Assembly: GCA_022984795.1 (NCBI GenBank)
Contig: JALIHJ010000060.1
Coordinates: forward strand, 93,914 to 157,913
Reading direction: 5' to 3'
DNA: 64,000 nt
DNA from: Fabrea salina
Taxonomy: Eukaryota; Ciliophora; Heterotrichea; Heterotrichida; Fabreidae
This document shows, piece after piece, positions 12,485 through 45,529 of the stretch. The stretch's first letter is position 1. Every line of letters starts with the position of its first letter. Made by a program: the position numbers and the translations under genes. The notes under the pieces are model-generated. The model was given only the letters and a program-made list of their open reading frames with translations, made no database searches and had not been told where the DNA came from.

Positions 12485-12886
12485 TTACCTAACTATGGCA
12501 TAGCCAAGTATGTTGTTGATGTTTTCAAAAATCAAGTTGTGCCAGCCGCTTTGGACTTCTTCAGGGTCAATAGTTCTTCCTGCAGCATCTCTTTCTGGAA
12601 AGTTCGACTGTTCCACAGTAACTTCGCTTTCGTCGTCGCCTAAGTCTTTGATGCTGATGGATACGTCGGAGTAACTAGGCCAGTCACTCATCTTCCACTT
12701 CATTCTGATCAGAGAAGGTTCTTTGAGTTCCAGTACTTCTCCTTGGATTCTTCCTTCGAATAGCAGTAATTCTCCGGACTCTTGGAACTTCGCAGGAGTC
12801 CTTGTAAACATCGTTAGTTCTCTTTCGTCTGTAAGCGCTTTGTAAATCACCTGGGCAGGCACGCGGAAGCTCACAGTGAACTTCAT
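12485..12886 (-). CDS. Stand-alone AHSA1 (Hsp90 ATPase activator C-terminal) domain
   Basis: The 133-residue protein is a single AHSA1/START-like fold: the opening FRVPAQVIYKALTDERELTMFTR, the strand MKWKMSDWPSYSDVSISI, and the C-terminal block DPEEVQSGWHNLIFENI (human AHA1 has a similar GW-x-x-I/L ending). Full-length AHA1 has an additional N-terminal Hsp90-binding domain of about 160 residues; it is missing here, and the start is fixed because the divergent neighbour's ATG lies only 6 bases away. It may act as a short co-chaperone that binds the Hsp90 N-terminal dimer. Confidence 0.85.
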   Translation of the reverse strand: MKFTVSFRVPAQVIYKALTDERELTMFTRTPAKFQESGELLLFEGRIQGEVLELKEPSLIRMKWKMSDWPSYSDVSISIKDLGDDESEVTVEQSNFPERDAAGRTIDPEEVQSGWHNLIFENINNILGYAIVR

Positions 12887-12892
12887 TTATAA
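12887..12892. promoter_or_regulatory. Divergent start-codon spacer TTATAA
   Basis: The six bases TTATAA are all that separate the ATG of the minus-strand AHSA1 gene (12886) from that of the plus-strand phosphatase gene (12893). The palindromic TATA-like core could serve both directions, but any other promoter element must lie inside coding sequence. Confidence 0.5.
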
Positions 12893-13594
12893 ATGGGGAG
12901 AATTTGGCTAGTCCGTCACGCTCAAACTCATTACAACAAAGCTCAGTACGAGTGGGAAAAAACCGGAATGTCTATGCACAACGCTCCTTTTAGGTGGGAT
13001 GAGTCACTTTGTGACTCCCCACTAACAGAAGAAGGCATCCAGCAATGTACAGAAGCTTCCCAAGTAGCTCATACTTTAGATGTGCAGAAAGTGTTTGTTT
13101 CGCCTTTGAGAAGGGCTTTGCAGACCTGCGACACCCTTTTTAAGAACCACCCTAATTCGCCCGAAATAATAGTTCACCCAGTTTTATCAGAATGCCTCCA
13201 TAATGGCCACGACGTCTCAGTGTACGAAGGAGAACCCTTTCCTGAGTACTCCCACTTTAACTGGTCACTTGTGCCCAATACTCACCACGTAGCTTTGGAA
13301 GTTTGCAAGAACCAGCACACACTTCCTTTGCAGAGCTGCAGTTTTGCAGAGGCCAGACAAAATATTTTGCAAACTATGAAAGAACTCAACCCTGAATACA
13401 TTGAAAGCATTCACGAACTCTACGAAAGGGCCCAACACAGCAAACTTACATGGAAAAAAGAACTAGAACACTGTAGTATCGCCCTTGTAACTCACTCAAG
13501 TTTCATAAAGTACTTTACAGCTAAGCACCAAGCTCACGGTTACTCAGACTACTGGTGGCTCGAAAACTGCGAAATAAGGGAATACCACTTTTAA
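12893..13594 (+). CDS. Histidine phosphatase (phosphoglycerate mutase-like)
   Basis: The 233-residue product carries the histidine phosphatase signature at its N terminus, WLVRHAQTHYNKAQYEW (phosphohistidine in RHAQ), then SPLTEEGIQQ, VSPLRRALQTCD, and the second catalytic histidine in LVTHSSFIKYF. These belong to the broad acid-phosphatase/phosphoglycerate-mutase superfamily acting on small phosphoesters or proteins; the substrate cannot be assigned. Start and stop are shared with neighbours: only 6 bases from the divergent AHSA1 gene, and its TAA overlaps that of the convergent TAF8 gene in the sequence TTAA. Confidence 0.9.
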   Translation: MGRIWLVRHAQTHYNKAQYEWEKTGMSMHNAPFRWDESLCDSPLTEEGIQQCTEASQVAHTLDVQKVFVSPLRRALQTCDTLFKNHPNSPEIIVHPVLSECLHNGHDVSVYEGEPFPEYSHFNWSLVPNTHHVALEVCKNQHTLPLQSCSFAEARQNILQTMKELNPEYIESIHELYERAQHSKLTWKKELEHCSIALVTHSSFIKYFTAKHQAHGYSDYWWLENCEIREYHF

Positions 13595-14193
13595 TCTACA
13601 TCTTCAATTAAATGGTTGATTGCGTCGCTGGTCTTCAAGAAAGGACTTGGTTCTTTAGTTTCTTCTTGGGAGGTTTCTTCCCTGCTGAGGAGCTGAGCTA
13701 GTCTTTGTTCAATAAGTTTTTTCTCCTTAGCTCTGACAGCCCTTACAGTAGAAGGGTCAGTGTCCCGAGTAACTGGGACTTTTGTAAACAAGTAAGTGTG
13801 CTCAGGTGGAAATTCAGGCAGAAAAGCAGGTACGTTGTCTGCAGTGTAAGTGAGCTCCTTAGGTTCTTGGGGAACTAAGTGAGGTGTGTAGGGGAACTGT
13901 ATGTTTTCTCTGCAGAAAGGCAAGTCTGTCGAAGGGGACTGCATGTACTGTTTTATGGACTCTGGAGTCAACTGCAGCAGAGAAAGTGCTTGGAGGGTGT
14001 CTACTATGTTGCACTCTGTGCGTCCACTGTGCTCAGCTATCAGCTTAGCGCGGTAAGCAAGTTTCTTAGTAAGCAGAACTGAGACTTCTTGGAGGGTGTC
14101 TAGTGCCTGAGAAGTTATTGAGGAGAACCCTAGTTCTTGGGCTAGCTGGGCAATTGCTATGGCGTTTAGCTTCTTTCCATATTCTTCGCACAT
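13591..14193 (-). CDS. TAF8: TAF8-like TFIID subunit
   Basis: The 200-residue protein starts with a histone-fold (bromodomain-associated type) of about 80 residues, including IAQLAQELGFSSITSQALD and IAEHSGRTECNIVDT. After a linker comes VPAFLPEFPPEHTYLFT (about residues 118-135), the conserved TAF8 C-terminal motif that contacts TAF10/TAF2 in other eukaryotes. TAF8 pairs with TAF10 within TFIID, the general factor that recognises core promoters. That is of interest in a genome where core promoters must fit into a few bases. The rest of the C-terminal tail is charged and short. Confidence 0.82.
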   Translation of the reverse strand: MCEEYGKKLNAIAIAQLAQELGFSSITSQALDTLQEVSVLLTKKLAYRAKLIAEHSGRTECNIVDTLQALSLLQLTPESIKQYMQSPSTDLPFCRENIQFPYTPHLVPQEPKELTYTADNVPAFLPEFPPEHTYLFTKVPVTRDTDPSTVRAVRAKEKKLIEQRLAQLLSREETSQEETKEPSPFLKTSDAINHLIEDVD

Positions 14194-14274
14194 TCTTTAT
14201 TAATGCTTAGTAAACACGAGCACTAAGACTAGGCAAATCAATTTAATGGCAGTAAATTCGTTCCTTAACAAAAA

Positions 14275-16350: not shown

Positions 16351-16971
16351 TTAAACTGGCTGACCCACAGGAGCGTTGTAAATAGGCTGGCCTGGCATTG
16401 CAATTATTCCTGAGCGGGGAGCTAAGGTGTTGGCTTGTTGGTTCATGAGCTTGACTACTTCTTCTCCATGGAGGACTAAAATAGTTTCATTGTATTTGAG
16501 TCTTATGTCGGCACTCCAAACGATCTTGGCAAGATAAAAGTTGATCAGAAACAAAATAAATAAGACAATGAAAAGTCCGATCACTCCATCAGTTCCCTCT
16601 AAAAACACCTCGAAAATGAAGTTCCAAGCAACATTAAACACTAACTCGAACTTTTTGATTTTGGCGTAAATTGAAAGTGGTAGGTAGGAGTTTTTAAGGA
16701 TTCCGTTAACAGCAGGAATAGCCATTACTGCTACTGTTATTGAAACAATGTCTAGTAGCAATGCAAGAGCTGCCCAGGCGTCGAATTCTGCATGAAAGAT
16801 TTCACTCAGAATGATGAAGAACTCAAAGAACCTAAGAACTCCTACTATAATGTCCAAAACACCTACTACAATCACCCCGTTCTTAAGAGTCATGCACCTT
16901 AAAAAGGACTTGTAAGGCCCCCCTAAGTACTTCATAAAACTTTCTTCTTCAGCTGGGCTCTGGACTTCCAT
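16351..16971 (-). CDS. Hypothetical 4-TM membrane protein
   Basis: A 206-residue protein with four hydrophobic segments: GVIVVGVLDIIVGVLRFFEF, AALALLLDIVSITVAVMAI, a segment around ELVFNVAWNFIFEVF, and GLFIVLFILFLINFYLAKIV. The C terminus is cytosol-like and Pro-rich with NAPVGQP. The tetraspanning layout with a short N-terminal tail resembles LAPTM/MARVEL-type proteins, but I cannot name the family. The start codon is only 5 bases from the divergent pseudokinase gene. Confidence 0.7.
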   Translation of the reverse strand: MEVQSPAEEESFMKYLGGPYKSFLRCMTLKNGVIVVGVLDIIVGVLRFFEFFIILSEIFHAEFDAWAALALLLDIVSITVAVMAIPAVNGILKNSYLPLSIYAKIKKFELVFNVAWNFIFEVFLEGTDGVIGLFIVLFILFLINFYLAKIVWSADIRLKYNETILVLHGEEVVKLMNQQANTLAPRSGIIAMPGQPIYNAPVGQPV

Positions 16972-16976
16972 TTATA
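16972..16976. promoter_or_regulatory. Divergent start-codon spacer TTATA
   Basis: Only TTATA lies between the ATG of the minus-strand 4-TM gene (16971) and the plus-strand ATG at 16977. Both transcripts would need to start in these 5 bases or inside the opposing gene. Confidence 0.5.
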
Positions 16977-19697
16977 ATGGGACAGAACTTGAAAAGCATG
17001 CACTCTTCTCACCTCAGCATTGAAAAGGTAACTTCTACTTAGCAACTCAACTCAATAACCCTGAACCAAGCTAAGAAGCTCTGTGGACGGTGGAAAAGTT
17101 TAGGGATTCCTTTTTTCATGGGAGTTACTGAGTTCCACAAAAACGTAGTGCAAGAAGAACTTAACATGAACTACGATAAGTACTTGTCAAACGGAATAGA
17201 AATAGAAGTAATAGAGTTCTTAACTGGGCTAATTCTGATGAGTGTAGGGCCTTTAGAAAGCAAAATAGAAGGTAAGGTTTACTTAGCTCTTTTTGAGTTT
17301 TATAAGTTCGAAGAAGAAGAAGTCATGACTCCTGACGAGTTTTACATATGCATTGACAAGTCACTCAGAGCAATCTGCCACGAAGGCCAAATCCAAATAC
17401 CTTACGTTGAAAAAGAGTCACTAGAAGACTTCCGCGATGAAGTTACTCAGGACGAATGCATAACTTATGAAACTTTCAGAAGCATAATCATGCAGGAATG
17501 CGAGAAGTTCGCTAACGTTTTCCAGGAGTCCTACAACTTTCTGCGGATGTTCAGCACTCACGTAGTAGAAAACCCTTTTCCAGTAATCAGCTTTTTGCAG
17601 CCAGGAAACTTGTTTTTAGGCAAGTACGAAATAACAAACCCCCCCAAACTGATAGAAGAGATTTCCTCTAACTACAAAAGGAAGTACAAGCACTCGTTGC
17701 TCCAAGTTAAGCCTATGTTGGGCGAAGAAGGCAAACTTACGTTTGAACTTATTTACCTTTCAGGAATCAACGGAGACAAAAGCTTCAGACAAAACTACTT
17801 CAGAGAAATCGTTCTTAAAAACAAACTGACTAAAGAAGAAATGAACGAGTTCGGCGAGTTGCCTGGAGGCATTCTTTATAAAAGCATATCAGAACTTGAA
17901 GCCACCCAAATGACTCTTGGCGAGTACTTTGAAGAGAAGTCTCAAGAAATGGAAACTAAAAACTCAGACGAACCCAGAAGGAAAATAGTTTGCATGAACG
18001 AAATAGAAACTATATCGCTTGGACTCAAACTTTTAGACGAACTAGAAGTTCTGCACTCTATAAACGTTTTGCACTCCAACATCAACCCTAGTTCAGTGTA
18101 CCTCATTGAACAAGACATCAACCGTCTGAGGTTTTTAGACCTAGAACTTGCCATTTGGGACCCTATAGAGATACTGGGTTCTGAAAGTGCTTACTTCCAG
18201 CAACTAGTAGGAGACAAGTACGACACCACCTTCAGAGACATTAACTACTTGTCCCCAGAACACGAAGAACTTGCCAAGAAGTACCAAAAAGCAAAAAAGG
18301 TGCCACAAGAAGGAGTGGGCAAGCAATGCGACATATACAGCATAGGAGCCATTCTGTTTAGGGCCCTTACAGGAAAAGCTCCTGTGAGTTTTAGCGAAGA
18401 CACCAAAGACCACCCTTCTTTACATGAAGAAGAAAGAGACTGGCTTGAAGAATTCAAGTGTCCTGAAGAACTAGACCCAATAGTGATGTCTAACGGAATG
18501 ACCCAGTTTCTACTGAAAATATTGGCTAAGGACACCCAAGTTAGACACAAAGACATCATGGAAGCAAAAAGAGAACTGAGTCAACTTGTAGGACTGATTG
18601 AAAGGATTCCAAAATTACTTATGAAAGGACTAGAGCACATTCCTCACAACAACCACGAGATGTTTGAAGACGACTACGTTTTGGACTTGCACGAAGAAGG
18701 AATAGACGACTTTTGTCTAGAGTACCTGTACAAGTTTATTACGGAAAGCAGAATTCCTAATATTCGGATGTTTGGAAACATAGGTTTACCCATTCGGGCT
18801 CTTGCTTCCAACAGCATTGACAAACTTGAACTTTCAAGCCAAAACATATACGCTGAAGAACTAAAATTGCTTTCGTTTTTCATCAAAATAAACACTAGTT
18901 TACTAGAAGTAGACCTTTCAAAGAATCCTTTGTTACAAAGACACTCTTTTGACAAGCAAGAAAACGAAGAAGACGCTAGTTCAGAGAGCAAAACTACTAT
19001 GGGGTTCAGTTGGCTCTTGGAAGCTCTGGAGTCGCATAGTGAACTTAAAAGACTAGAACTAGCACAAGTAGAACTCGGTGAAGAACTTGCAAACCAACTC
19101 TGCGTCCCCATTGCTAAAAACTTGAACTTAGAAAAGATTAACTTGGCTAACTGCGAACTAGGTGTAGAAGGCACTATGTATATCTGCAACACTGTCCAAA
19201 GCATGAAGAACCTCAGGTACATAAACCTTAGCAGCAACGACATTGGGGATCAAGGCGCTAAGCACGTAGCTAAGTTGCTAGAAACAAACCACCACATACT
19301 TGAAATAGACTTGTTCAGAAACAACATTGCAAAAGAAGGAGGAGAGGCCATTGGAGCAGCACTTACGAACAACTTCATTATTCAGAAACTAAGCATTGGA
19401 GACAACGAAATTGAACAGGACGAAAAAGACTTAATTCTGCAAAGTGTTATGTTTAACACTCAGTACAAAAAACTCAAAGCTACTAACGAAAGGTTTGGGG
19501 AGTTCGGGTACAACCTGATGGCTGAAAGCATTAAACGCTGGACTGAAAAGTCCAAGTTTGTTTTGGAAAAACTCAGAGCAAGGCTTCACCAGTGCGAGGA
19601 CGAAATCGACCAAAAACTAGCAGAACTCCTACTGGACTCAGAAGGCAACTTAGAAATGCCTGAGTTTTCTAGTCAGTTAAGCCAAGAGTATAGTTAA
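16977..19697 (+). CDS. Pseudokinase-LRR protein, copy 1 of a tandem pair
   Basis: Exons 16977-17027 and 17043-19697 join across a 15-base intron into ~901 residues, the same length as the neighbour (904). The N-terminal ~170 residues look like a degenerate EF-hand pair (FEFYKFEEEEVMTPDEFYIC). A kinase fold follows: EIVLKNKL (candidate Lys), a catalytic loop reading VLHSNINPSSVYL, so HRD has become HSN, a DLELAIWDP block at the DFG position, and YLSPEHEEL for the APE motif. Both catalytic aspartates look lost or displaced, implying a pseudokinase. The last ~330 residues are RNI-type leucine-rich repeats (NLRYINLSSNDIGDQGAKHV). Without the intron the product would lack the first 46 residues, which align with copy 2. 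Confidence 0.85.
17028..17042 (+). other. 15-base intron
   Basis: gtaacttctacttag, A at position 10, phase 0. The spliced first exon (17 codons) restores alignment with the N terminus of the downstream paralogue, which has no intron there. Confidence 0.85.
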
Positions 19698-19700
19698 TAA

Positions 19701-22415
19701 ATGGGAAACTCTTTGAGTCTTTTATACGAAACTCACAAAGAAGACAAACTCAAAAAGCACGTTATTCCAGTTGAGGAAGTAAGTACTCTCTGCATGCGCT
19801 GGAGGAAACTCAGGTCCCCCGAAACGATGACTCCAAATGAGTTCCAAAAAGCAATTGTGCAGAACAAAAAAGTAAAACTTAACTACAAGAAGTTTTACGA
19901 CAGTGGCTCAGAAATACAAGTAATAGAGTTTTTGACAGGTTTGATTATACTGAGTTCAGGAAGTTTAGAAGATAGGCTTAAGTGCCTTTTCAAACTGTAC
20001 TGTGTAGAAGACCAGTCTTGCATGATGTTTGAAGAACTCATTGAGTGCTTGGAAAATTCACTTATGGCTCTGTGCAACCTTGGGGAAGTCCAAACCTATG
20101 AAATAGACCAACCTGCGCTTGACGAGTTTTGTATGGAAATTTCTGGAGGCGAAGCTATAGACTTTACCACCTTTAAAGACTCCATTCGGGCAGAATGTTA
20201 CAAGTTTGCAGAGATTCTTCAGCAGTCTTACACCTACATTCGGAGCGTTTCAACTATTTTGATAGAAAATCCTTTCCAGGTGATTCCTTACCTTCAAAAG
20301 GGGTCTTTGTTTTTAGGCAAGTACGAAATAATAGAAACTCCCCAAATGAAGAAGTACGTTTCTTCAACTTACAAGCAAAAGTACAAGCACGCTAACCTGA
20401 ACGTAAAGCCTATGCTGGGCAACGAAGGCAGTTTGAGCTTTGAGTTGATCTACTTAGTAGGAGTTCAAGCTGATAAAAACTTCCGACAAAACTACTTCAG
20501 AGAAATAGTTCTGAAAAACAAACTCAGTGACAATCGAATCAATGAGTTCGGGGAACTCCCTGGAGGCCTTCTTTATAAAAGAGTGTTTCAGTTTGAAACT
20601 TCCCAAATGACTCTTGAAGACTACTTCCGAAACAAAGCTCCTAACACAAAAGCTAGGTTTGAAAACTCCAGCAAAAAGTTCAAACTTAAGTGTTTAACTG
20701 AAGAAGAAGCCATTGAAATATGCCTGCAGCTTTTAGAACAACTAGAAACTCTGCACAACATCCAAGTAATACACTCAAACGTGGAACCCGACTCAGTTTA
20801 TCTTTTGGGAGACGACATTAACAAGTTGGCTTTTCTAGACCTAGAACTCGCTATCTGGGACCCTTTAGAAATACTAGGAATTGAAAGCAGGTACTTCAAA
20901 CAACTTCCTGAAGACAAATACGACACTTCTTTTAGAGACAGGAATTACTTGGCCCCTGAGCACAAAGAACTAGCTGAGGAGTATAGACGCACTTCTAGAA
21001 TTCCTAAGCAAAACATCACCTACCAGTGCGACTTGTACGGAATAGGAGCCATCATCTACAGAGGACTTACTGGAACAACTGTAGGAAGGTTCAGCGAAAA
21101 CACCTCTGAGCACAGTGACTTGGGCTCTAAACGAGAGTACTTAACTGACTGGGAGTGTCCTCATCAGCTGAAAGAACTAAGAGTTTCTAACAGCCTCTGC
21201 AGCTTTTTGATAAAAATCCTGGCTAAGGACCCAAATTTTAGGTACAAAAACATACAAGAAGTGAGAAGTGACATTCTGAAACTCCAAGACGAACTGAAAT
21301 CCATTCCCGAAGAGCTGCTTGAAGGACTTGAGCACAAAACTCCTAAAGACGAGTTAATGTTTAGTGACGACTGCGTGGTTGACTTGAGAAAACATAACAT
21401 CAACGACTTTACTTTAGAGTACCTGTTGAAGTTCATAATGGATTCTAGAATCACCAACATCAGGGTCTTTGGAGGAATACTGCCTCTGTACGCCCTTAGA
21501 GAAAACAAAACTAGCATTTTGGACTTGTCAGGGCAAAAGTTGCACTGCGAAGAACTAAGGTTGCTTTCCCAGTTTATTGCAATCAATCAGTCCTTAAGAA
21601 TACTGAACCTGTCCAACAATCCTTTGATGGAAAGGCATGAGTCCCAACACACTCCACAAAACACCAAAGTTACTATTGCTGAAATGTCGTTTAGGGAGTT
21701 TGTAAACTCGCTCAAAAACCATACTAACTTAGTGGAGTTTCGGTTATCTAACGTTTGCATGGGGAACTACTTATTGAGTGAGCTAGTTGAGCCTTTGAAG
21801 CAAAACCATTTGACAATCCTAGACTTAAGTTACTGCAACTTAGGGCCTACAGGAATTGAAGAGGTTTCTCAACTCTGTGCTAACTGCTCACATCTTAATT
21901 ACTTGAACTTAAGCGGAAACTCAATAAGTGACGAGGGGTCAAAGCATTTAGCCAGCATAATACAGAAAAACCACAATATAGCAGAACTAGAAATAGCCAA
22001 CAACCAAATAGGCAACCAAGGAGCAAAAACTATAGCAAGAGCCATTACAGACAACTTCGCTATAGAAAACATCAACATCAAGGACAACACCATGGACACC
22101 AACGAGTCAGAGTTAATATCCCAAAGCGTTGCTTTCAACACTCAGTACGCTAAGTTCAAAAGTACCAATAAAAAGTACGGCGAGTATGCTTACAACTTAA
22201 TTGCTGAAAGCATTAAAAAGTGGGTGGAGTCCCACAAGTTTGTAGTGGACAAGCTGAATGCCCGACTAAACAACTGCGAAGACGAAATAGACAGAAAACT
22301 CAGAGAAATCCTTTTAGACTCGAAAGGGAACTTGAACCTGAAGCCTGTTCCTCTGAAGTACTCTTACAACCCAGGAGAGGGAACAGTGCACTTCGAATAC
22401 AATAAAAAAAAGTAA
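19701..22415 (+). CDS. Pseudokinase-LRR protein, copy 2 of a tandem pair
   Basis: The 904-residue paralogue of the preceding gene starts 3 bases after its stop. Layout is the same: EF-hand-like region (FKLYCVEDQSCMMFEELIEC), a kinase fold with VIHSNVEPDSVYL (HSN for HRD) and DLELAIWDP in the DFG position, YLAPEHKEL, and C-terminal RNI-type LRRs (HLNYLNLSGNSISDEGSKHL). The N terminus MGNSLSLL could be N-myristoylated (Gly2, Ser5-like context), suggesting membrane association; copy 1 starts MGQNLKSMHSS with the same possibility. Both share identical substitutions in the catalytic motifs, so the loss predates the duplication. Role unknown. Confidence 0.87.
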   Translation: MGNSLSLLYETHKEDKLKKHVIPVEEVSTLCMRWRKLRSPETMTPNEFQKAIVQNKKVKLNYKKFYDSGSEIQVIEFLTGLIILSSGSLEDRLKCLFKLYCVEDQSCMMFEELIECLENSLMALCNLGEVQTYEIDQPALDEFCMEISGGEAIDFTTFKDSIRAECYKFAEILQQSYTYIRSVSTILIENPFQVIPYLQKGSLFLGKYEIIETPQMKKYVSSTYKQKYKHANLNVKPMLGNEGSLSFELIYLVGVQADKNFRQNYFREIVLKNKLSDNRINEFGELPGGLLYKRVFQFETSQMTLEDYFRNKAPNTKARFENSSKKFKLKCLTEEEAIEICLQLLEQLETLHNIQVIHSNVEPDSVYLLGDDINKLAFLDLELAIWDPLEILGIESRYFKQLPEDKYDTSFRDRNYLAPEHKELAEEYRRTSRIPKQNITYQCDLYGIGAIIYRGLTGTTVGRFSENTSEHSDLGSKREYLTDWECPHQLKELRVSNSLCSFLIKILAKDPNFRYKNIQEVRSDILKLQDELKSIPEELLEGLEHKTPKDELMFSDDCVVDLRKHNINDFTLEYLLKFIMDSRITNIRVFGGILPLYALRENKTSILDLSGQKLHCEELRLLSQFIAINQSLRILNLSNNPLMERHESQHTPQNTKVTIAEMSFREFVNSLKNHTNLVEFRLSNVCMGNYLLSELVEPLKQNHLTILDLSYCNLGPTGIEEVSQLCANCSHLNYLNLSGNSISDEGSKHLASIIQKNHNIAELEIANNQIGNQGAKTIARAITDNFAIENINIKDNTMDTNESELISQSVAFNTQYAKFKSTNKKYGEYAYNLIAESIKKWVESHKFVVDKLNARLNNCEDEIDRKLREILLDSKGNLNLKPVPLKYSYNPGEGTVHFEYNKKK

Positions 22416-23885: not shown

Positions 23886-25466
23886 TTAAACAGTTTGGAT
23901 GCGGTTAAAGGGTTCCTCAAGAGACTCAGAGGCTCTTTGAAGTTCTTGTTTGAGTTTTTGGACTGGAAGTTTTTCCTTAGAAGCTTTGGAGTAGTACTTA
24001 GGGTTGACTTGGGAGCTGTACTTAGAACGCGAGGCAGTGAACTTAGTGTACCTGGGTCCTTCTTTTTTTTCTTGGAAAACCATTGGGTACTGGATGGCAT
24101 GCTTGAGTTGTCTGTAGGCTTGCTGCAGCTCCAAAGCCGAGTCGTAGTCTTTGTTGTTTCCCAAAAACTGTCTGCAGAGTTCTCTGAACTTATCCAGTTT
24201 AGAAGAAAACTGCTTGTTAGGGTTCTTTTTGCTTTCAGCTTCTGTAATGAAGAAGAGTTGGTTTTGTCCACTGCCTCTGGTTTGGATGGCACTTTCCCTG
24301 TCGTTGCTAGGAGTGTAGATGTCTTTGTAGTCTCTGTTTTCTATTGCAGGAGGAAAGACTTCTTCGTCCATTTCAGAGTTAGAGTTCATTTCGGATATAG
24401 GAATTGTTCCCATGTTCTTAGACAACTCCACTCCAAAGAGTTGGTTCTTAAGAGCAGCGTTGTAGTCTTGGGTCACGTAGGCAATAGGTCTTGCGTAAGG
24501 AGGTCTTTTGGCTTTGCGCATAGGGAACTCGTTGATAACTGTAGCTGATAAGTTAGTTAACAGTAGGTTTTCAAGTTCTTCGGTTTCTTGCTTTTTAGCA
24601 AAGGGGTTCCCAGTGATTGTTAGAACTTGCAGAGTTTGGAAGTCAGCAGCTGGGTAAAGGTTTTCTTCTGAATCAACCCAGTTGTACGAGAAGTCAAGTT
24701 CTTTCAAGTGAATAAAAGAGTCGGCATTCAGTGCTTCTGAGTGAATTCCTCTGAGTTTGTTGCGAGCCAAGTCGAGTTTTTGCAAACTAGGAATACTTGC
24801 TAGGGCTCTGAACAACAATGAAGCTGAAAACAAAACACTGTCACTGGAGAACCCGTTTGACCCCAGCTTAAGTTCTTGCAAAGCTTTGAAGTAACTTAGG
24901 TCTTCAGGAAGAGTGCAAAGGTCGTTGTTGGAAAGATCTAAAATACTGAGTCTAGGCAAAGAACCTAAGTTAAGGATAGTTTGTGCTGAGACGCAGTTAA
25001 AACTAAGGTTAAGGGTTTCGAGGCACCTGAAGCTAGGAAAAGACAGTTCAGGGATTTGGGTTATTTTATTGCACATAAGCGTTAGGTCAGTTAAGCTTTC
25101 TAAGTTTCTAATAAGTCCTAAGTCAATACAGTTATCTGACAAGTCGAGTTTGGAAAGTGAAGTGAAGTACTTAAGATCTTCTTCAACTACATCAGAAATC
25201 CCTGCTCCACGCAGTTGAACTGTCACTACTTCGTTAGGCATCTCAAGTTTACTTGCTTCTAAAAGTAGAAAGCCGTCAAGTATTTTGTTGTAGATAGTGG
25301 GCTTGAAAGACTTAGGAGTTTCTTTGTAAAAAGCGTTGAAGGGGTCTTTCCTTAAGTGGCGGGGTTTTTTAGGTTTTCTTTGCTTGATTTCAGTGTCGAT
25401 GTTTTGGACTTTGATAGGAAAGGCTTGTCTTTCTTGGTTTTTGCGGAAACTGGCTCTAAAGGACAT
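23886..25466 (-). CDS. Leucine-rich repeat protein, XRRA1-like
   Basis: A 526-residue protein. After a basic N terminus (QRKPKKPRHLRKD) come about eight LRRs between residues ~75 and 290, among them LSKLDLSDNCIDLGLIRNLE, LETLNLSFNCVSAQTILNLG and LSILDLSNNDLCTLPEDLS. The repeat wording, especially LDLSFN...I.LG.LP.L..L.L..N.L..LP, resembles XRRA1, a LRR protein found in ciliated organisms. The C-terminal third is charged, with FRELCRQFLGNNKDYDSA. A role in cilia or basal bodies is an inference. Its start is 12 bases from the divergent lipin gene. Confidence 0.65.
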   Translation of the reverse strand: MSFRASFRKNQERQAFPIKVQNIDTEIKQRKPKKPRHLRKDPFNAFYKETPKSFKPTIYNKILDGFLLLEASKLEMPNEVVTVQLRGAGISDVVEEDLKYFTSLSKLDLSDNCIDLGLIRNLESLTDLTLMCNKITQIPELSFPSFRCLETLNLSFNCVSAQTILNLGSLPRLSILDLSNNDLCTLPEDLSYFKALQELKLGSNGFSSDSVLFSASLLFRALASIPSLQKLDLARNKLRGIHSEALNADSFIHLKELDFSYNWVDSEENLYPAADFQTLQVLTITGNPFAKKQETEELENLLLTNLSATVINEFPMRKAKRPPYARPIAYVTQDYNAALKNQLFGVELSKNMGTIPISEMNSNSEMDEEVFPPAIENRDYKDIYTPSNDRESAIQTRGSGQNQLFFITEAESKKNPNKQFSSKLDKFRELCRQFLGNNKDYDSALELQQAYRQLKHAIQYPMVFQEKKEGPRYTKFTASRSKYSSQVNPKYYSKASKEKLPVQKLKQELQRASESLEEPFNRIQTV

Positions 25467-25478
25467 TGTTATTTAAAG

Positions 25479-27188
25479 ATGAATACATTAGGAAGACTAG
25501 TATCAGGAATTACAAATGCTTTTGACTTTAACTCAGCTACTCTTTCAGGGGCTTTGGACGTGATAGTAATCAAGCACCCTGACGGTTCTTTGCACTGTAC
25601 TCCTTTTCACGTGAGGTTTGGGAAGCTTAAGCTTTTGCGCAGTCGCGAAAAAACAATCCGTCTCTTAGTTAACGGAGAGTCCACAGAAATCAGAATGAAA
25701 CTTGGAAACGCAGGGGAAGCCTTTTTTGTAGAGGAAACTGAACAGAAAGTAGAGACTGAACTAAGCACTTCCCCAATTCTTTCTCCTGACAGCAGTTCTC
25801 CCCCAATAGCTCCTATTAGCATAGGAGAAGAAGAAGAGAAACAAGTAGAAATGCTGCTTCCTCAGAGTCCTAACTCTGTTATGAAGGAACTCGACTTGCC
25901 TAAGCAAAGTGCTTGGCAGTGGCTTTGGGGCAAACCTCCTCAAAAGAAGGAAACCACTAAACCTCCTGAAAAACCTAAGTCCTTGTTTGGGTCTATCTTT
26001 GGAATGTTTGGCTCCAAACAAGAAGACAGTGAACTCGAAATGAGTTTGTGTGGAGGCCTTATTGCAGGCTGTGAAGACTTAGAAACTTTGTTTGCTGAAA
26101 ACAAAGTGAGCTTTGAAGTCTTTTCTGAAGACCCTTGGAAAATCATAGGCAATCCTAACTTGATGTTTAAAATTGAAGGGAAGTTGTACAACGTTGAGTC
26201 AGGAATTCCGCTTATTTTGTCAATTTTAGCTTTCAACCAAGAAGTAGGCACTGAAAACAAAGAACCTAAGGAAGAAGATAAGATGGAGCAACTAGAGTTG
26301 CCTCCTCTAGAACAAAGCTCTGAAACCATAGTTACTGAAGAAAGTGTAGACGAGTTCCCTGAAGTGCATCCTTCTGAGGACACTAAGTCTTCTGACTCAG
26401 AAAAAAGAACTAAATACTTCAAAAAAACACTTAGACTTAACTCAGAGGAACTAGTTAAACTCAAATTAAAACCAGGAGTGAACAGTGTAGTTTACACAGT
26501 AAACAGCAGTTTCCAAGGACAACAGTCCATTGAAGGCAAGATTTATCTGTGGGATTCAGACAGCAAAATAGTGATTTCTGACATAGACGGAACCATTACT
26601 AAGTCAGACATTTTAGGACACATCCTACCAATGGTAGGCAAGGACTGGAGTCACCCTGGAGTAGTTAACCTCTACAACAGCATTATACGCAACGGGTACA
26701 AAATCATATACCTGTCCTCACGAGCTATAGGACAAGTCCGCACCACAAAAGAGTACTTAGGTTCTGTGTCCCAAAACAACAAAGGACTACCTGACGGCCC
26801 TGTTTTAATGTCTCCAGACAGGCTCATTGAGTCCTTCGTGAGAGAAGTAATTAAAAGGGTCCCCCAAAAGTTCAAAGCCGGGGTTTTGAGAGACGTTGCA
26901 GGACTCTTTCCCAACGAACGAAACCCTTTTTACGCAGGCTTTGGCAACAGAGACAGTGACGCCATTGCTTATCGGGCTGCTGGTGTGCCTCTGCACAAAA
27001 TCTTTATTATTAACCCTAGTGGTGCAGTTTTTGTGTTTAACAATACTTTTTGCAAAACATACACTGAGATCAACACTCTTGTTTCGGAGATCTTTCCAAA
27101 CATAATTGGTTTAATTTCAGACGAGGAATACAGCAACATAAACTTCTGGAGAGTGCCTTTTCCACAGATACTAGAAGAACTTGACTAA
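25479..27188 (+). CDS. Lipin / phosphatidate phosphatase
   Basis: The 569-residue product starts MNTLGRLVSGITNAFDFNSA and continues ATLSGALDVIVIKHPDGSLH, the lipin N-terminal domain, followed by CTPFHVRFGKLKLLRSREK. An acidic, low-complexity middle leads to the C-terminal HAD-type catalytic domain with the DxDxT motif KIVISDIDGTITKSD, then GYKIIYLSSRAIGQ and FGNRDSDAIAYRAAG. It converts phosphatidate to diacylglycerol in triglyceride and phospholipid synthesis. I chose the ATG at 25479 because the lipin domain begins exactly there; an upstream ATG in the same frame lies inside the divergent LRR gene. The stop lies one base from the eIF4E gene's stop. Confidence 0.94.
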   Translation: MNTLGRLVSGITNAFDFNSATLSGALDVIVIKHPDGSLHCTPFHVRFGKLKLLRSREKTIRLLVNGESTEIRMKLGNAGEAFFVEETEQKVETELSTSPILSPDSSSPPIAPISIGEEEEKQVEMLLPQSPNSVMKELDLPKQSAWQWLWGKPPQKKETTKPPEKPKSLFGSIFGMFGSKQEDSELEMSLCGGLIAGCEDLETLFAENKVSFEVFSEDPWKIIGNPNLMFKIEGKLYNVESGIPLILSILAFNQEVGTENKEPKEEDKMEQLELPPLEQSSETIVTEESVDEFPEVHPSEDTKSSDSEKRTKYFKKTLRLNSEELVKLKLKPGVNSVVYTVNSSFQGQQSIEGKIYLWDSDSKIVISDIDGTITKSDILGHILPMVGKDWSHPGVVNLYNSIIRNGYKIIYLSSRAIGQVRTTKEYLGSVSQNNKGLPDGPVLMSPDRLIESFVREVIKRVPQKFKAGVLRDVAGLFPNERNPFYAGFGNRDSDAIAYRAAGVPLHKIFIINPSGAVFVFNNTFCKTYTEINTLVSEIFPNIIGLISDEEYSNINFWRVPFPQILEELD

Positions 27189-29047: not shown

Positions 29048-29067
29048 ATTTAATAATTCCTATAGAT

Positions 29068-29895: not shown

Positions 29896-29928
29896 GTTTA
29901 AATCTTATATTACCGTTTTTCCTCGTAA

Positions 29929-30792
29929 ATGTCTGAAGCACAAAGCGGAGAACTAATGGGGGAACCCTATTCTATGCTAGAAGAAGAAGAGTTCAAAGAA
30001 ACTGAAGCCTTGCTTCCTAGGATAGCCCAAAACATGGAAGGTTCAGAGGTGATGTCCAACATCACTAGTTTGTATGCCAACTCTATTTACATTTTGGTTC
30101 CAGCAGTAATCTTGAGCTCTGCTAAGGTAAACACCAAGTAGATCATTGCTTCCTCTATTGTACTTGGAATTTCTTCAGGGGACACTGAAGAACCCATTGA
30201 AACCTTTGTAATTGGAATGCTGGTGATAGACAGTGTATTTCTATTCATCTGCATTTTTAGGTGTGTAGGAAGATCTTACCAGAGTTCAAAAATGTTTTCA
30301 GTTGCCAATTACTTAGACTCTGTTTTGATACTGTAAGTGCTAAGCAGGGCTTACATTACCTTCCAAGTTTTAGGCAATGTATGGTACTACAAATGCGATA
30401 ACTGTTTAGACAACGCTCCTGAACTCAGCATCTTAACCTTGATTTACATAATACTGGGGTACTTGTTTTTGAGTTTGCCGTGTTGCTTGTTTACCATGAT
30501 ATGCTTGTGCCTTCCGTTCTTGATCACTGTGTTTTTGTGGATAGTAAGAGGAGCTAACAAAGAAGGCCAAATAAGAACACTGCCTCCTGAAGTCTACAGT
30601 TCTGCACAACATACACAGTCCAGAAACTGCACTATTTGCCACGTGCCTTTTGTAGACGGAGTAAGGATAATACCTTTCCCTTGCAACTCAAGACACGTTT
30701 TCCACGAAGAGTGTGCTAAAAGCTGGATTAACTGCGGGTACGAGTTCTGTCCTACTTGCAAGCAAAACTTAACTCAAAGTGATACAGAATAA
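29929..30792 (+). CDS. Membrane RING-H2 protein, copy 2 of a tandem pair
   Basis: Three exons (29929-30126, 30142-30332, 30348-30792) give 277 residues closely matching the preceding gene: acidic head, hydrophobic segments (SIYILVPAVILSSAK, MLVIDSVFLFICIF, NVWYYKCDNC, IYIILGYLFLSLPCC) and the RING-H2 CTICHVPF...FPCNSRHVFHEEC...CPTC. Intron 1 is shared in position with copy 1; intron 2, in the LILAYITFQVLG region, has no counterpart in copy 1. That identifies an intron gained or lost after duplication. Likely a membrane-bound ubiquitin ligase; target unknown. Confidence 0.83.
30127..30141 (+). other. 15-base intron (shared by both RING genes)
   Basis: gtaaacaccaagtag, A at position 10, phase 0. 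Confidence 0.9.
30333..30347 (+). other. 15-base intron (only in RING copy 2)
   Basis: gtaagtgctaagcag, A at position 10, phase 2, ending CAG. Unspliced, it gives an in-frame TAA. Confidence 0.9.
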
Positions 30793-31385: not shown

Positions 31386-32168
31386 TTAAAATGGAATTTT
31401 AATATTCTTTAACGAGTGCCTTTTTTTAATCTGTTTTCTGGTTTTTAACTGTGGAAGCGAAGCAGACAGTTCGTCGAAGAAAAGTATCACTTGTTGTTCT
31501 TTAAACTGAAGTGAGTTTTGTAACACATTGACTTCATGCTGGAGTTGTTTGACTTCGTAATTCTCGGGATACTTTCTTTCAGAAGTAACAGTTTGAAGTT
31601 GGGACTTGTACTGGTTCTTTTTTATTCTGAGGTTGGAAGCTTGGGTTTGCACTTGTTCCTGTTTCTTAGAAAGCAGTTTTATTTCCTTTGAAGTTTGAGT
31701 CAGTTCTGACTTGTAGTGCTTTTCAAGGATTTTAGCCCTGTTTTGCATGTAGTCTAATATTTTAGCTTTCAAAGTGTTTTGGCTCCAAAGAACTAAGAAC
31801 TTAGTTTTCTGTTTGTTTTGGAATCTTTTAACTAAACTAACCAAGCTAAGCAGGGTTCTTTTGATGTAGTATAAAGTTTGAATATTGGATTGAGTAACTG
31901 TGCGCCACTTTAAGAAGTAATTGAGCTGGTGGACTTTGAATTTCCGACGTGCAAGGGAGCAAAGAGTCTCAAGTATAGTTTGCATAAGCACAATAGAAAA
32001 GTTGTTTTTTTCTTGATCGTAGTCAACCTCAGAGTTGCTTCCGGACTCATCTGGCGTAGAGGGTTCAGAGGGCTGAGTTTAGATTACTGGTAAATAAAGC
32101 TTCACTGAAAAAGACTCAGATGCCTCTGAGTGCTCTACCATAGTTAAGTCAGAAAGTGAATCTTCCAT
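31386..32168 (-). CDS. Sfi1-like coiled-coil protein, one intron
   Basis: Exons 32168-32088 and 32072-31386 join across a 15-base intron into 255 residues. The N terminus is acidic and Ser-rich. The middle has two Sfi1-type centrin-binding-like segments, QLNYFLKWRTVTQS and KFLVLWSQNTLKAKI (L-x3-F/L-x-x-W), about 40 residues apart, then a coiled coil (ILEKHYKSELTQTSKEIKLL and beyond) and a basic tail. A centrosome/basal-body fibre role is a reasonable inference. The start is 9 bases (including TATAA) from the divergent gene's ATG. Confidence 0.65.
32073..32087 (-). other. 15-base intron
   Basis: gtaatctaaactcag on the minus strand, A at position 10, phase 0. Unspliced it brings a TAA in frame. 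Confidence 0.85.
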
Positions 32169-32177
32169 AGACTATAA
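32169..32177. promoter_or_regulatory. Divergent start-codon spacer with TATAA
   Basis: agactataa separates the minus-strand ATG at 32168 from the plus-strand ATG at 32178; TATAA touches the plus-strand start. Confidence 0.45.
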
Positions 32178-32465
32178 ATGAACAAGCCTTACGACAAATA
32201 CACTTTTGAGGAAGCCCAGAAGTTCCATGAACAGAACTTAACTCAAAAACCAGACGAAGACATGTTGAAGTGCGCTAAAAGACTTTTAGGCCAGTTTCAG
32301 GACCCCCAGCCTTCACTTTACTTGTTTTTTGAGTACTTGTTGATTGACAAACAGCCCCAAGAAGTGATTCAGCACCTTTTAAAGTTCTACTGTGATTCTG
32401 TTTGTAGACTTAAGCGCAAAAACACCTCTACTCGCTCCAAGCGTAAGAAATCAAAACAAAATTAA
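32178..32465 (+). CDS. Small hypothetical protein with basic tail
   Basis: A 95-residue product, MNKPYDKYTFEEAQKFHEQN at the start, a helical, Leu/Phe-rich middle (SLYLFFEYLLIDKQPQEVIQ) and a strongly basic C terminus (RKNTSTRSKRKKSKQN), which could be a nuclear or nucleolar signal or an RNA-binding tail. No family recognised. Its stop TAA overlaps that of the convergent TOG gene within the sequence TTAA. Confidence 0.65.
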   Translation: MNKPYDKYTFEEAQKFHEQNLTQKPDEDMLKCAKRLLGQFQDPQPSLYLFFEYLLIDKQPQEVIQHLLKFYCDSVCRLKRKNTSTRSKRKKSKQN

Positions 32466-36541: not shown

Positions 36542-36997
36542 TTAAAGTGTATTTCTCATAATTTTGGACTCTTTGTATATGCGGTGGTTGGGGTCGTCTA
36601 TCAAAAAGGCCAGTGTAGCTAAGTAACTTGCAAAGTACATACTTCTTAGTCCTCCCCAAGCTTGAATAACTAAGTACATTCCAAGGACTCCTCCCGGAAT
36701 AGCTATTGAGTACATTCCTAAAAGTGCAGGAATGACTACTAGTCTTTTGTTGCTTCTAGTAAGCTGAACAGCCTTTTTGGTCATGAAGTTCTTAAAAAAC
36801 AAAGGCGAAAACCCTCCTAAGTACAGTAAACTTGCTTTTAGTTTTTTATACTCGTGGGAAGAGCCCCCAATTACTTGGTTTGTGCCTTTCAAAACAGAAG
36901 CATAAGCGTAAAAAGCCCTGCCTAACTTACTTTGCAGTCTTTGGAATGAAGAAGGCTTTTCAGAGGTGTACTTCTTGTACAAGCTTTCTAGATCCAT
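36542..36997 (-). CDS. Hypothetical membrane protein
   Basis: A 151-residue protein (ATG at 36997; an upstream ATG in the same frame overlaps the divergent gene and is rejected). N-terminal residues are basic and helical. Hydrophobic segments include SLLYLGGFSPLFFK, VVIPALLGMYSIAIPGGVLGM and YFASYLATLAFLIDD. Pro/Gly kinks suggest a small integral membrane protein, perhaps mitochondrial given its neighbour, but no family is recognised. Start spacing of 8 bases (tttataat) to the divergent COA1-like gene. Confidence 0.65.
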   Translation of the reverse strand: MDLESLYKKYTSEKPSSFQRLQSKLGRAFYAYASVLKGTNQVIGGSSHEYKKLKASLLYLGGFSPLFFKNFMTKKAVQLTRSNKRLVVIPALLGMYSIAIPGGVLGMYLVIQAWGGLRSMYFASYLATLAFLIDDPNHRIYKESKIMRNTL

Positions 36998-37005
36998 TTT
37001 ATAAT
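36998..37005. promoter_or_regulatory. Divergent start-codon spacer with TATAA
   Basis: tttataat lies between the ATG at 36997 (minus) and the ATG at 37006 (plus). Confidence 0.45.
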
Positions 37006-37974
37006 ATGCTTTTTTTAAAGGTAGTTGGAGGTGGTACAGCTGGACTAGGCGCAATCTTAGCAGGGAACCACTACTTCGTAAAAGAAAGCTGGAAAAAAAA
37101 CCACCCTTTGGTACAAGAATGCTTAAAGTTACTGCCTAAAGACGAACAGGTGCGCAAACACATAGGAGGGTACTTAACCAAGTCCAAAAGCATCACAGGG
37201 GTGTTGGAACCCTACAAAAACTGGGCCAACATATCTTTTGACTTAGAAGGACCTGAAGGCAGCGCTAAAGTCAGTATACTTGCTGACGCACAACCAGCTT
37301 CAGAGGAGTCTGACTACTTAGTTGAGGCGCCAGAGGACGAACTCTCTACGATACAAAGAACGTTAGCCATGATATCAGGGGACTCAAGGACTCCACAAAA
37401 CTTAAAGTGGAAAATCCTGTCCATGCACGTAAAGTTCGACGACATCACTTCCCACCCTATAATAGCAGAAGGTGTTAGAACCCACTCAGAACTGAGAGAA
37501 CTAGAAAACATAGAAGCTTCCTCAGAAGAAGATACGAACTTAGTTCCTGACTCGCAAGAAAAACTCAGCACTAAAAGAAGAAGGGAAAAAGTATTCAAGC
37601 GAGCCCAGAAAAGGTGGATGGGTATGGCTGGAGTCTGTGCTTCTGGCTTGCTGATTTGGGTGCTAGCAAAAAGGTTCCTGAAAACTAGACCAGTTGGTAA
37701 CAGTTTGTTTTTCTTCAAAGCTTTAGACATCCTAAAAACAGACCCTTTCGTCAGAAACGAAATAGGAGTTCCTCTGAACTTTTTACAGAACGTCAAAGGT
37801 CAACTCAACTACAACATGACCAAAGGAAACGCTGAAACCATTGTTTATGGCCCTAAAGGCTTTGGGAAGATGTACGCTTCAGGACAGTACTCAAGAACCG
37901 AGAAACTCTGGAACTTCCAAGAAATTCAAGTTGAAAAAGACGGCAAGCTGTATTCTGTTCTGAGTAATAAGTAA
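37006..37974 (+). CDS. COA1/TIM21-like protein, internally duplicated
   Basis: A 322-residue product (ATG 37006, selected because upstream sequence lies in the divergent gene). The N-terminal half has a glycine-rich hydrophobic segment (LKVVGGGTAGLGAILAGNHY), a helix with DEQVRKHIGGYL and strands ANISFDLEGPEGSAKVSILA. The C-terminal half repeats the order: membrane helix GMAGVCASGLLIWVLAKRFL, helix FFKALDILKTDPFVRNEIGV, strands ETIVYGPKGFGKMYASGQYS. This helix plus two-strand GxxG pattern is that of COA1/TIM21 proteins of the mitochondrial inner membrane, involved in cytochrome oxidase assembly or protein import. Two copies in one chain are unusual. Confidence 0.55.
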   Translation: MLFLKVVGGGTAGLGAILAGNHYFVKESWKKNHPLVQECLKLLPKDEQVRKHIGGYLTKSKSITGVLEPYKNWANISFDLEGPEGSAKVSILADAQPASEESDYLVEAPEDELSTIQRTLAMISGDSRTPQNLKWKILSMHVKFDDITSHPIIAEGVRTHSELRELENIEASSEEDTNLVPDSQEKLSTKRRREKVFKRAQKRWMGMAGVCASGLLIWVLAKRFLKTRPVGNSLFFFKALDILKTDPFVRNEIGVPLNFLQNVKGQLNYNMTKGNAETIVYGPKGFGKMYASGQYSRTEKLWNFQEIQVEKDGKLYSVLSNK

Positions 37975-39884: not shown

Positions 39885-39889
39885 GGCTA

Positions 39890-42391: not shown

Positions 42392-42479
42392 GTATTTAAA
42401 TATGAAATATGTTACTTTATTCTAGTAACTACCCTAATGTTAAACTTAACTCAAAGTGCACTAAGCGCTTGCAATAAAT
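42392..42479. other. Divergent intergenic spacer
   Basis: An 88-base AT-rich gap between the carboxypeptidase gene and a coiled-coil gene, with no coding stretch seen. It contains tattctagtaactaccctaa and similar AT-rich runs; no motif stands out. Confidence 0.5.
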
Positions 42480-43862: not shown

Positions 43863-43869
43863 TAACACC

Positions 43870-44154
43870 TTAAGCTATATTATATTTAACTTTTTTGGAA
43901 CAGAACTTAGGAGAAGTAGCTTTTCTCTTTAAAGTCTTAGGAACGATGAAAGGCATTGAGTAGCTTTGCTCTACCTTTTTGGTTTGCTTGCACTTAGTGG
44001 ACACAGTAGGTTTCAAATAAGAAGGAGGAGCTTTCGAGCGGGAAGCTTTGGCCTTTTCAGAAAACCAGTTTTGGATTTCTTTAGTTGTGTACTCAAACTC
44101 TTCTTGGCTCAGAAAGTCCACAAAAGTAGGAGCGTCGAAATAAACATTCTGCAT
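43870..44154 (-). CDS. Small protein with basic NLS-like tail
   Basis: A 94-residue product: acidic/aromatic N-terminal half (MQNVYFDAPTFVDFLSQEEF, WFSEKAK) and a basic C-terminal half ending TLKRKATSPKFCSKKVKYN. The tail closely resembles the KRKA(S/T)xP...KKVK tail of the 30797-31369 protein. No domain recognised. Its ATG lies one base from the ATG of the divergent LRR gene, which makes the initiation context of both genes unusual. Confidence 0.6.
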   Translation of the reverse strand: MQNVYFDAPTFVDFLSQEEFEYTTKEIQNWFSEKAKASRSKAPPSYLKPTVSTKCKQTKKVEQSYSMPFIVPKTLKRKATSPKFCSKKVKYNIA

Positions 44155-44155
44155 A

Positions 44156-45529
44156 ATGATTTTGTATTTATTATTAGTAGGAGTGTTGCAGGCTGAGGTT
44201 ACTGTCCAAGTTAAGCCTTCAGGTGTAAAAGAAACCCAAAGCTTGGTTCTTTCAGGTCCTGAGGAACTTTTGCACTCTGCTATTAACCAACTGAGTAAGA
44301 ACCCTAGTTACTCTTTTATACTCAACAACAAAAGAGGCCTTGTAGTGAGGTCTAGGGACTCACCTGGACTTAGACTTAACTACATCCCCAGAAACTACAT
44401 GGAACTAGTAGGACTTGTTTCTAGTCTCCTAGAACTCCCTCCTTCGCAGTTTAAAATTGTTTACTTTGCTGAAGAGGAGTTTGCAATAGTTTCCCAGGAA
44501 ACTTATGACACTGCAGTAGAACTAAGTGGACTGGAGTTACTTGAAGTAGAAGCTAAAACTAAGTTCGAAACTAAAACAGAAAACCTAGACTTCATAAGCT
44601 ACTACGAAAAATACAAAGACTCCATGCACACAGAAATCCAGCAAGTGTACCAAGTAGTCATTGAAGAGGGAGAATTCACCTTCAAAGAACTCTACTTGTT
44701 ATTGCTTTACTTAGATGAAACTCAGATGTTGCACTTATGCAAAGTGCTTCCTCAACTAACTGAACTTGAAGTTATGGTTTTAACCGGAAACTTAGTTACT
44801 GAAAAAGTTGCAGCTTGCTTAGGTCAGAGTTTTGAACGTTTGCCCAAACTGCAGAACTTAGTGCTTAGTTTTACTGCAGTAGACTGGAGAGGTTTAAAAG
44901 CCCTGGAAAAAGAAATAAAGAACCCTTTGGAACTAAGTTTTTTAAGCTTAGACCTGAACGGGTTTGAGGCAATAGAAGCTAAGTACTTAAACTTGCTTTT
45001 GAAAAAGCTGCAATACCTGAGCTACTTAGACTTGTCTGACAACAACTTAGCAGAGTCAGGAGTGCTTGAACTTACAAACTTGCCGATCACTCTGACTACG
45101 CTTAAACTCAACAACAACTTACTAGGCATATGGGGAACCAAAGCACTTTCAAAGTTACTGGTTAAACTACCTAAGTTAAAAACTCTGAGTATTAAAGACA
45201 ACTCACTAGGACTTGAAGGAGTTAAAAGACTAGTAACTACTTTTGAGCATTTTGAAAGTTTAGAAGTACTAGAACTCAGAGGCAACAAACTAGGAGACGA
45301 AGGAGTAAAAGCACTTGCTGAGCACTTTCGAGAACTAAAAGCACTTAGAAGGTTAGACTTGTCTTTAAACGACTTGAGCCAAGTTTCAGTAAGCATTCTT
45401 TCGGAACACTTAAAGGAACTGACTAGCTTAGAAGAACTTGTAATGACTGAAAACTTTTTGTCTCCTAAAGATGAGCACATTCTGCATACTACCTTTAAAG
45501 GCTTGTTCAGCTTAACTATTAAATTATAA
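44156..45529 (+). CDS. Secreted/membrane-associated LRR protein
   Basis: A 457-residue protein starting MILYLLLVGVLQAEVTVQVK, which fits a signal peptide or N-terminal anchor with cleavage after QA. The first ~200 residues are globular and acidic. RNI-type leucine-rich repeats follow, for example YLSYLDLSDNNLAESGVLEL, TLKLNNNLLGIWGTKALSKL, LEVLELRGNKLGDEGVKALA and LRRLDLSLNDLSQVSVSILS. Extracellular or endomembrane-lumen location is likely. The start codon lies 1 base from the divergent gene's ATG; no later Met would keep the signal peptide. Confidence 0.75.
   Translation: MILYLLLVGVLQAEVTVQVKPSGVKETQSLVLSGPEELLHSAINQLSKNPSYSFILNNKRGLVVRSRDSPGLRLNYIPRNYMELVGLVSSLLELPPSQFKIVYFAEEEFAIVSQETYDTAVELSGLELLEVEAKTKFETKTENLDFISYYEKYKDSMHTEIQQVYQVVIEEGEFTFKELYLLLLYLDETQMLHLCKVLPQLTELEVMVLTGNLVTEKVAACLGQSFERLPKLQNLVLSFTAVDWRGLKALEKEIKNPLELSFLSLDLNGFEAIEAKYLNLLLKKLQYLSYLDLSDNNLAESGVLELTNLPITLTTLKLNNNLLGIWGTKALSKLLVKLPKLKTLSIKDNSLGLEGVKRLVTTFEHFESLEVLELRGNKLGDEGVKALAEHFRELKALRRLDLSLNDLSQVSVSILSEHLKELTSLEELVMTENFLSPKDEHILHTTFKGLFSLTIKL

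Follow-up and report, generated by a model that had tools for sequence, protein, structure and literature searches.

Closely spaced divergent start codons in a ciliate chromosome end suggest a start-proximal AT-rich initiator

The 64-kb stretch of contig JALIHJ010000060.1 analyzed here (64,000 nucleotides, hereafter the window) carries tightly packed genes, including divergent pairs whose start codons lie almost back-to-back. A gene finder was written for the window and its output was curated to 41 models with 40 usable starts. Five short low-score models (25940-, 47837+, 48608+, 62136- and 62897-) were dropped before counting, gene 1-3109 was added, and the in-frame ATGs at 4311 and 45535 replaced the starts 4353 and 45559. 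The start of 52748-61615, where the frame is open upstream, was left out of the counts, and all counts concern this single window. The gene set is eukaryotic, with an ABC transporter, protein kinases, acyl-CoA oxidase, lipin, citrate synthase, VPS13, eIF4E, TAF8, Snf7, Sir2 and cytosolic carboxypeptidase. A preliminary description of the window had listed eight divergent ATG pairs with gaps of 1-24 bp, and all eight were recovered by the independent gene finder with exactly these gaps. The interval assigned to them, 12884-44158, holds seven of the pairs but misses the pair 51641/51666. The gaps and their flanking genes are as follows.

12887-12892: 6-bp gap TTATAA, palindromic, between an AHSA1-like gene (12485-12886, minus strand) and a histidine-phosphatase gene (12893-13594, plus strand)
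16972-16976: 5-bp gap TTATA (TTATAA with the A of the plus-strand ATG), between 16351-16971 (minus) and a kinase-leucine-rich repeat (LRR) gene (16977-19697, plus)
25467-25478: 12-bp gap between an LRR gene (23886-25466, minus) and lipin (25479-27188, plus)
29048-29067: 20-bp gap between citrate synthase (27728-29047, minus) and 29068-29895 (plus), RING-like by eye
32169-32177: 9-bp gap AGACTATAA between 31386-32168 (minus) and 32178-32465 (plus)
36998-37005: 8-bp gap TTTATAAT between 36542-36997 (minus) and a Coa1-like gene (37006-37974, plus; alternative in-frame start at 36946)
44155: 1-bp gap between a weakly TPX2-like gene (43870-44154, minus) and an LRR gene (44156-45529, plus)
51642-51665: 24-bp gap between 50862-51641 (minus, two predicted 15-bp introns) and 51666-52472 (plus)

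Such tiny gaps could arise artificially if the first ATG was wrongly taken as the start or if gene models are false. Several starts are, however, backed by N-terminal alignments. Position 1 of the Lipin_N profile aligns to residue 1 at start 25479. Both starts of the 6-bp pair are supported by Pfam profiles, with the His_Phos_1 alignment beginning at residue 4 (12893) and the AHSA1 alignment at residue 9 (12886), and the next methionine (Met) is residue 26 in both proteins. The alignment of the protein starting at 16977 with its paralogue 19701-22415 begins at the first residue of each (46% over 891 columns), a weaker case given that the next Met is already at residue 8. Compared with solved structures, citrate synthase (29047) aligns from residue 16 in the best match and from residues 11-12 in others; it has no second Met until residue 52. 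The protein starting at 44154 has a weak Aurora-A_bind (TPX2) match at residues 6-36 (E 6e-4, just under the Pfam cut-off; E 0.15 against solved TPX2 peptide structures), and the N-terminus encoded by the plus-strand gene at 44156 is hydrophobic by eye. Least certain is the pair 36997/37006, where an in-frame ATG at 36946 inside the neighbor means that the genes could overlap instead. Homology support was found for neither start of the 24-bp pair 51641/51666, several models depend on predicted introns, and four starts (16971, 16977, 29068 and 32168) have their next Met within 15 residues. For the other 12 of the 16 starts, the next Met comes at residue 26 or later, and we regard an artefactual origin of the gaps as very improbable.

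Small gaps are not peculiar to divergent genes, since co-directional and convergent genes are equally tight. Gene models including introns occupy 96.9% of positions 1-61615. Divergent gaps (n=12) have a median of 16 bp and eight are at most 24 bp, the four wider ones measuring 81, 88, 393 and 394 bp. Co-directional gaps (n=16) have a median of 9 bp, with 12 of at most 24 bp and nine of 1-11 bp, and convergent gaps (n=12) have a median of 0.5 bp, with 11 of at most 24 bp. Genes abutting in every orientation leave little room for ordinary promoters.

The sequence directly upstream of the start codons is distinctive. TATAA occurs within 12 nt upstream of 13 of the 40 starts compared with 4.1 expected by shuffling, and an intergenic dinucleotide model predicts such a match at 4.3% of starts (1.7-4.1 of 40 across both models). 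The 13 sites begin at -10 (one), -9 (two), -6 (two), -5 (five) and -4 (three), which places 10 of them at -4 to -6. Elsewhere between -100 and +60 of the 40 starts, TATAA appears only at -54, -18 and +15. The -4 to -6 position is most commonly occupied in close divergent pairs (7 of 16 starts versus 3 of 24 others), with seven matches in divergent gaps of 5-9 bp and three at tandem starts. Counting TATAA or TTATA within 12 nt, matches are found at 8/16 close divergent, 1/8 wide divergent, 2/11 close tandem and 3/5 wide tandem starts. In three gaps both genes have a TATAA because the gap holds a TTATAA, whose last base is in one case the A of the ATG. TATAA density reaches 6.25 per kb-strand in gaps versus 0.48 in coding sequence. 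The last 6 nt before the ATG have a fraction of adenine plus thymine (AT) of 0.86 at starts versus 0.56 before 271 internal Mets. Starts are AT-rich in this way whatever their orientation, with 0.80-0.83 at tandem starts versus 0.88-0.89 at divergent starts.

Tandem genes 1-11 bp apart might alternatively be parts of polycistronic messages, in which case many genes would need no promoter. The nine co-directional gaps in this range are consistent with such messages, as is the lower frequency of TATAA or TTATA at close tandem than at close divergent starts. Polycistronic transcription has no bearing on the divergent pairs, though, and AT content before the ATG is much alike at tandem starts. We consider this explanation improbable.

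Several observations weigh against giving TATAA a promoter role. The preliminary description had stated that TATAA or TTATAA often fills the gaps. TATAA or TTATA does fill or touch four of the eight small gaps, namely each of those measuring 5-9 bp and not those of 1, 12, 20 and 24 bp, but this does not go beyond the gaps' own composition. Shuffling the bases of the eight small gaps alone, which are 85% AT, yields 1.99 expected compared with the four seen (P=0.10). The 13 matches represent 10 loci, and the 10 matches at -4 to -6 represent seven, because three gaps supply TATAA to both genes. The match at start 45535 includes the neighbor's stop codon, and 27 of the 40 starts have no TATAA within 12 nt. 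TATAA or TTATA precedes none of 271 internal Mets of intron-less genes, a weak control given that coding DNA is richer in guanine plus cytosine (GC) and bars in-frame TAA. Free motif discovery over -40 to +3 largely found the ATG again, which lay within that range, and gave only TAAAAATG, an A-rich start context.

TATAA and the A-rich sequence might instead be a translation-start context combined with leftover AT-rich spacer, with promoters located elsewhere, diffuse or within neighboring coding sequence. The 5' untranslated regions (UTRs) of about 20 nt would then extend into the neighboring gene and divergent transcripts would overlap. This is the principal rival, and we judge it possible but rather unlikely. 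Among the 40 starts, T occupies -6 and -5 in 24 and 22 cases, A dominates at -4 to -1 (23, 21, 23 and 26 cases), and G at +4 is found at 19 of 40 starts compared with 78 of 342 internal Mets. The A-rich start context overlies the TATAA position, and the recovery of TAAAAATG by motif discovery points the same way. A median 5' UTR of 19 nt is given for Paramecium (PMC5485702), and an AT-rich element between the transcription start and the ATG is described for Pseudokeronopsis (PMC8899921). A mere context does not account for the base order of TATAA, which exceeds composition shuffles (13 versus 4.1), nor for its being most frequent where two genes could share one element. Of the motifs tested farther upstream, TATAA, TATA, TAAA and TTTA were not enriched at -48 to -13, with TTAA borderline (P about 0.05 at -41 to -25). 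A function of TATAA as an in-frame upstream stop was also considered and not adopted. Stop triplets at -15 to -1 number 26 in frame and 22 and 13 in the other frames, so that frame 0 is clearly above only one of them, and an in-frame stop occurs at 20 of 40 starts.

The sequence is identical to the TATA core, and in Halteria a TATA-like motif is reported to precede the transcription start by about 17 bp (PMC7858049). If TATAA were a conventional TATA box that directs transcription from 15-30 bp downstream, transcription would start inside open reading frames. At 12886/12893 the TTATAA abuts both ATGs, no further Met comes before residue 26 in either protein, and the Pfam alignments start as early as residues 9 and 4. 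A weaker point of the same kind is 16977, where the paralogue aligns from residue 1 and the next Met is residue 8. At the conventional position, TATAA was found at 0 of 40 starts in each of four windows over -48 to -20 and at 1 of 40 in -24 to -13, other TATA variants not having been searched exhaustively. TATAA is absent 21-50 nt upstream of the ATG in all 40 starts. A conventional TATA box is extremely unlikely. Judged from sequence, TATAA at 12886 and 12893 is at or downstream of the transcription start, as an initiator or leader element, or is translational context, and the same reading holds more weakly for 16977.

Leader length can be approached through upstream ATGs. Across the 40 starts, ATG occurs at 0 of 320 positions at -3 to -10, 3 of 400 at -11 to -20, 7 of 400 at -21 to -30 and 9 of 1200 at -31 to -60. 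The window rate of 10.25 ATGs per kb predicts 7.4 at -3 to -20, where three are seen, a weak dip (P=0.064) that cannot separate leaders of 0 nt from leaders of 20 nt. At -21 to -60, 16 ATGs in 1600 positions match the background of 16.4. Relative to composition shuffles, ATG is low at -20 to -3 (3 versus 9.7, P=0.010) and also at -45 to -21 (9 versus 16.2, P=0.031). We think that the shuffle overestimates ATG here, because the window rate is lower. An ATG lies within 30 nt upstream at 9 of 40 starts, and the nearest one is out of frame in eight. This pattern hints at leaders no longer than about 20 nt and would argue against long ones. Comparable lengths are given for Paramecium, where the 19-nt median comes from Cap-Seq (PMC5485702), and for Halteria, with about 18 nt (PMC7858049). 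Of the proposed leaderless or near-leaderless mRNAs, short 5' UTRs are thus supported by the scarcity of ATGs within about 20 nt, whereas complete absence of a leader is not distinguishable from 20 nt. A core promoter inside codons had been proposed as well. Regulatory DNA overlapping codons is supported by the 6-bp pair, in which both starts are homology-backed, but AT content in codons 2-10 of close divergent pairs is not raised (0.583, equal to codons 21-80). There is therefore no sign of AT-rich promoter DNA within the first codons. Tandem starts have 0.627 in codons 2-10 versus 0.580 in codons 21-80.

It appears fairly probable that the genes use an AT-rich initiator close to the start codon, which would work both ways where it is palindromic. 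RNA polymerase II (Pol II) initiation would be set at or just upstream of the AT-rich element before the ATG, and 5' UTRs of about 0-20 nt would follow from such initiation. At a quarter of the starts, TATAA touches the ATG or sits 1 nt away, and most genes are AT-rich directly before the ATG. If each gene of the 6-bp pair has its own transcript, both transcripts must begin in the gap or in the neighbor's coding sequence. More generally, gaps of 1-12 bp combined with supported N-termini and own transcripts would place the core promoter in the gap, in the gene's own first codons or in the neighbor's coding sequence. In the gaps of 5, 6 and 8 bp, the palindromic TTATAA is equally placed for both genes and might work in either direction. 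Each gene of the 1-bp pair would have its start-site DNA within the other's first codons or its own. The architecture, the motif with its position and the support for several N-termini are seen in the sequence, and from them we infer the promoter role of TATAA, the exact transcription starts and the two-way use.

A stronger version holds that the mRNAs truly lack leaders and that a single palindromic TTATAA, abutting or overlapping the start codons of both genes, is by itself the whole Pol II core promoter for both directions. The presence of TATAA in all four gaps of 5-9 bp and in none of the other four small gaps fits such a shared promoter, yet we consider it unlikely. If true, two genes would hold one initiator and compete for it. 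The macronucleus carries many copies of each chromosome, and competition for a shared initiator might therefore be tolerable.

The window has a GC content of 42% and ends in a telomeric array.

63305-64000, plus strand: telomeric array of TTAGGGTG repeats, 52 exact copies, reaching the window end

TTAGGGTG is a permutation (rotation) of the complement of CCCTAACA, and the array is of the CCCTAACA telomere type. The window is the macronuclear chromosome end of a ciliate, very probably of a heterotrich, because it combines 15-bp introns with this type of telomere, both as reported for Blepharisma. Stentor and Fabrea are heterotrichs as well, and Fabrea salina, which has a streamlined genome, is a candidate source of the window. 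In the macronuclear genome of Blepharisma, introns are mainly of 15 and 16 bp, intergenic regions are short and the telomere repeats are CCCTAACA (PMC9942806). Blepharisma stoltei is described as sharing with the window 15-bp introns, short intergenic regions and UTRs and a telomere that is a permutation of CCCTAACA (PMC9942806). Blepharisma differs in reading UGA as Trp, of which the window bears no sign, and in its GC content of 34% versus 42%.

The gene finder, which required A at position 10, called 10 introns of 15 bp, including the following two.

17028-17042, plus strand: predicted 15-bp intron within the kinase-LRR gene 16977-19697
29242-29256, plus strand: 15-bp intron

A scan for GT...AG introns of fixed length from 9 to 40, in its definitive form covering 3111-61000, gave the best result at 15, with a gain of 38.3 from eight introns. 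The runner-up reached 17.7 at length 36, and the gain was 0 at length 16. An earlier scan had been confounded, presumably because one gene extends past the left end of the window. A occupies position 10 in 8/8 introns of the length scan although it was not required there. All 10 called introns carry an in-frame stop if retained, which is a TAA in five, and two introns occupy matching positions in paralogues, judged by eye. Reading these stretches as coding sequence with reassigned stops was set aside, since the length is specific to 15, five of the 10 contain an in-frame TAA and two have a position common to paralogues. Against this rejection, allowing TAG as sense raises the gene-finder score slightly (2563.9 versus 2560.6, eight TAG used), which might reflect introns ending in TAG being read through. 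Stops in the 40 models are 37 TAA, three TAG and no TGA. Treating TGA as sense, as in a UGA=Trp code, lowers the score to 2554.8 (versus 2560.6) with one TGA used. TGA is thus neither a stop in any of the 40 models nor needed as sense.

Five convergent pairs overlap, four by 4 bp at the stops (three TTAA, one TTAG) and one by 9 bp. The 4-bp overlaps are listed below.

8036-8039: stop overlap TTAG
13591-13594: stop overlap in which TTAA forms both stop codons
32462-32465: stop overlap
50862-50865: stop overlap

At these positions any 3' UTR must extend into the neighbor's coding sequence. Median 3' UTRs of 21-23 nt are given for heterotrichs (PMC4967479). Long gene-free stretches are few (275-394 bp; 3110-3503, 10918-11242, 49780-50172 and 52473-52747) and may contain genes or RNAs that escaped annotation, or more extended control regions. 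Two tandem paralogue pairs are present, the kinase-LRR genes at 16977-22415 with 46% identity and putative membrane genes at 29068-30792, RING-like by eye, with 38% identity and a common intron position by eye. A giant Cys-rich gene with internal repeats spans 52748-63304, with 2984 codons open. Beyond 61702 toward the telomere its frame is broken several times, possibly owing to sequencing error near the contig end or to a degraded subtelomeric copy. An ARAGORN run with the bacterial code found no tRNA in the window, and no window match reached the Rfam gathering score. Citrate synthase and lipin queries found no relatives in the viral and genome contig collections searched, and a 31-base piece of the window did not occur in the viral contigs.

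Short leaders and AT-rich start elements are already known in other ciliates and in Giardia. In Giardia, an AT-rich and somewhat symmetrical initiator consensus includes the transcription start, and some divergent starts fall on the same nucleotide (PMC3792122). The authors of this transcription start site sequencing study doubt that apparent bidirectional starts are one promoter and consider that they may be unidirectional ones (PMC3792122), which tempers the idea of two-way use in the window as well. The window resembles Giardia in having an AT-rich element adjoining the ATG and predicted short 5' UTRs. Giardia is an unrelated lineage, however, and the motif of the window is TATAA at -4 to -6 of the ATG. 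A compact 5' region with an AT-rich motif near the ATG is also described for Halteria and Pseudokeronopsis (PMC7858049, PMC8899921). Their motifs come from single-gene nanochromosomes, whereas here head-to-head genes are packed along DNA at least 64 kb long, and the Halteria motif precedes the transcription start and is farther from the ATG. The literature surveyed, a partial set without the Stentor and Fabrea genome papers, contains no report of TATAA at -4 to -6 or of 1-bp divergent gaps in heterotrichs; we make no claim of priority.

The architecture agrees with known compact ciliate genomes, and the step beyond what is known is quantitative. If promoters do fit into the 1-10 bp around the ATG, they would be among the smallest eukaryotic Pol II promoters. 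This would raise the question of how a pair of polymerases can initiate back-to-back when next to no DNA separates the genes, and how ribosomes begin on mRNAs that hardly have a leader. The close pairs are natural constructs for testing such tiny promoters.

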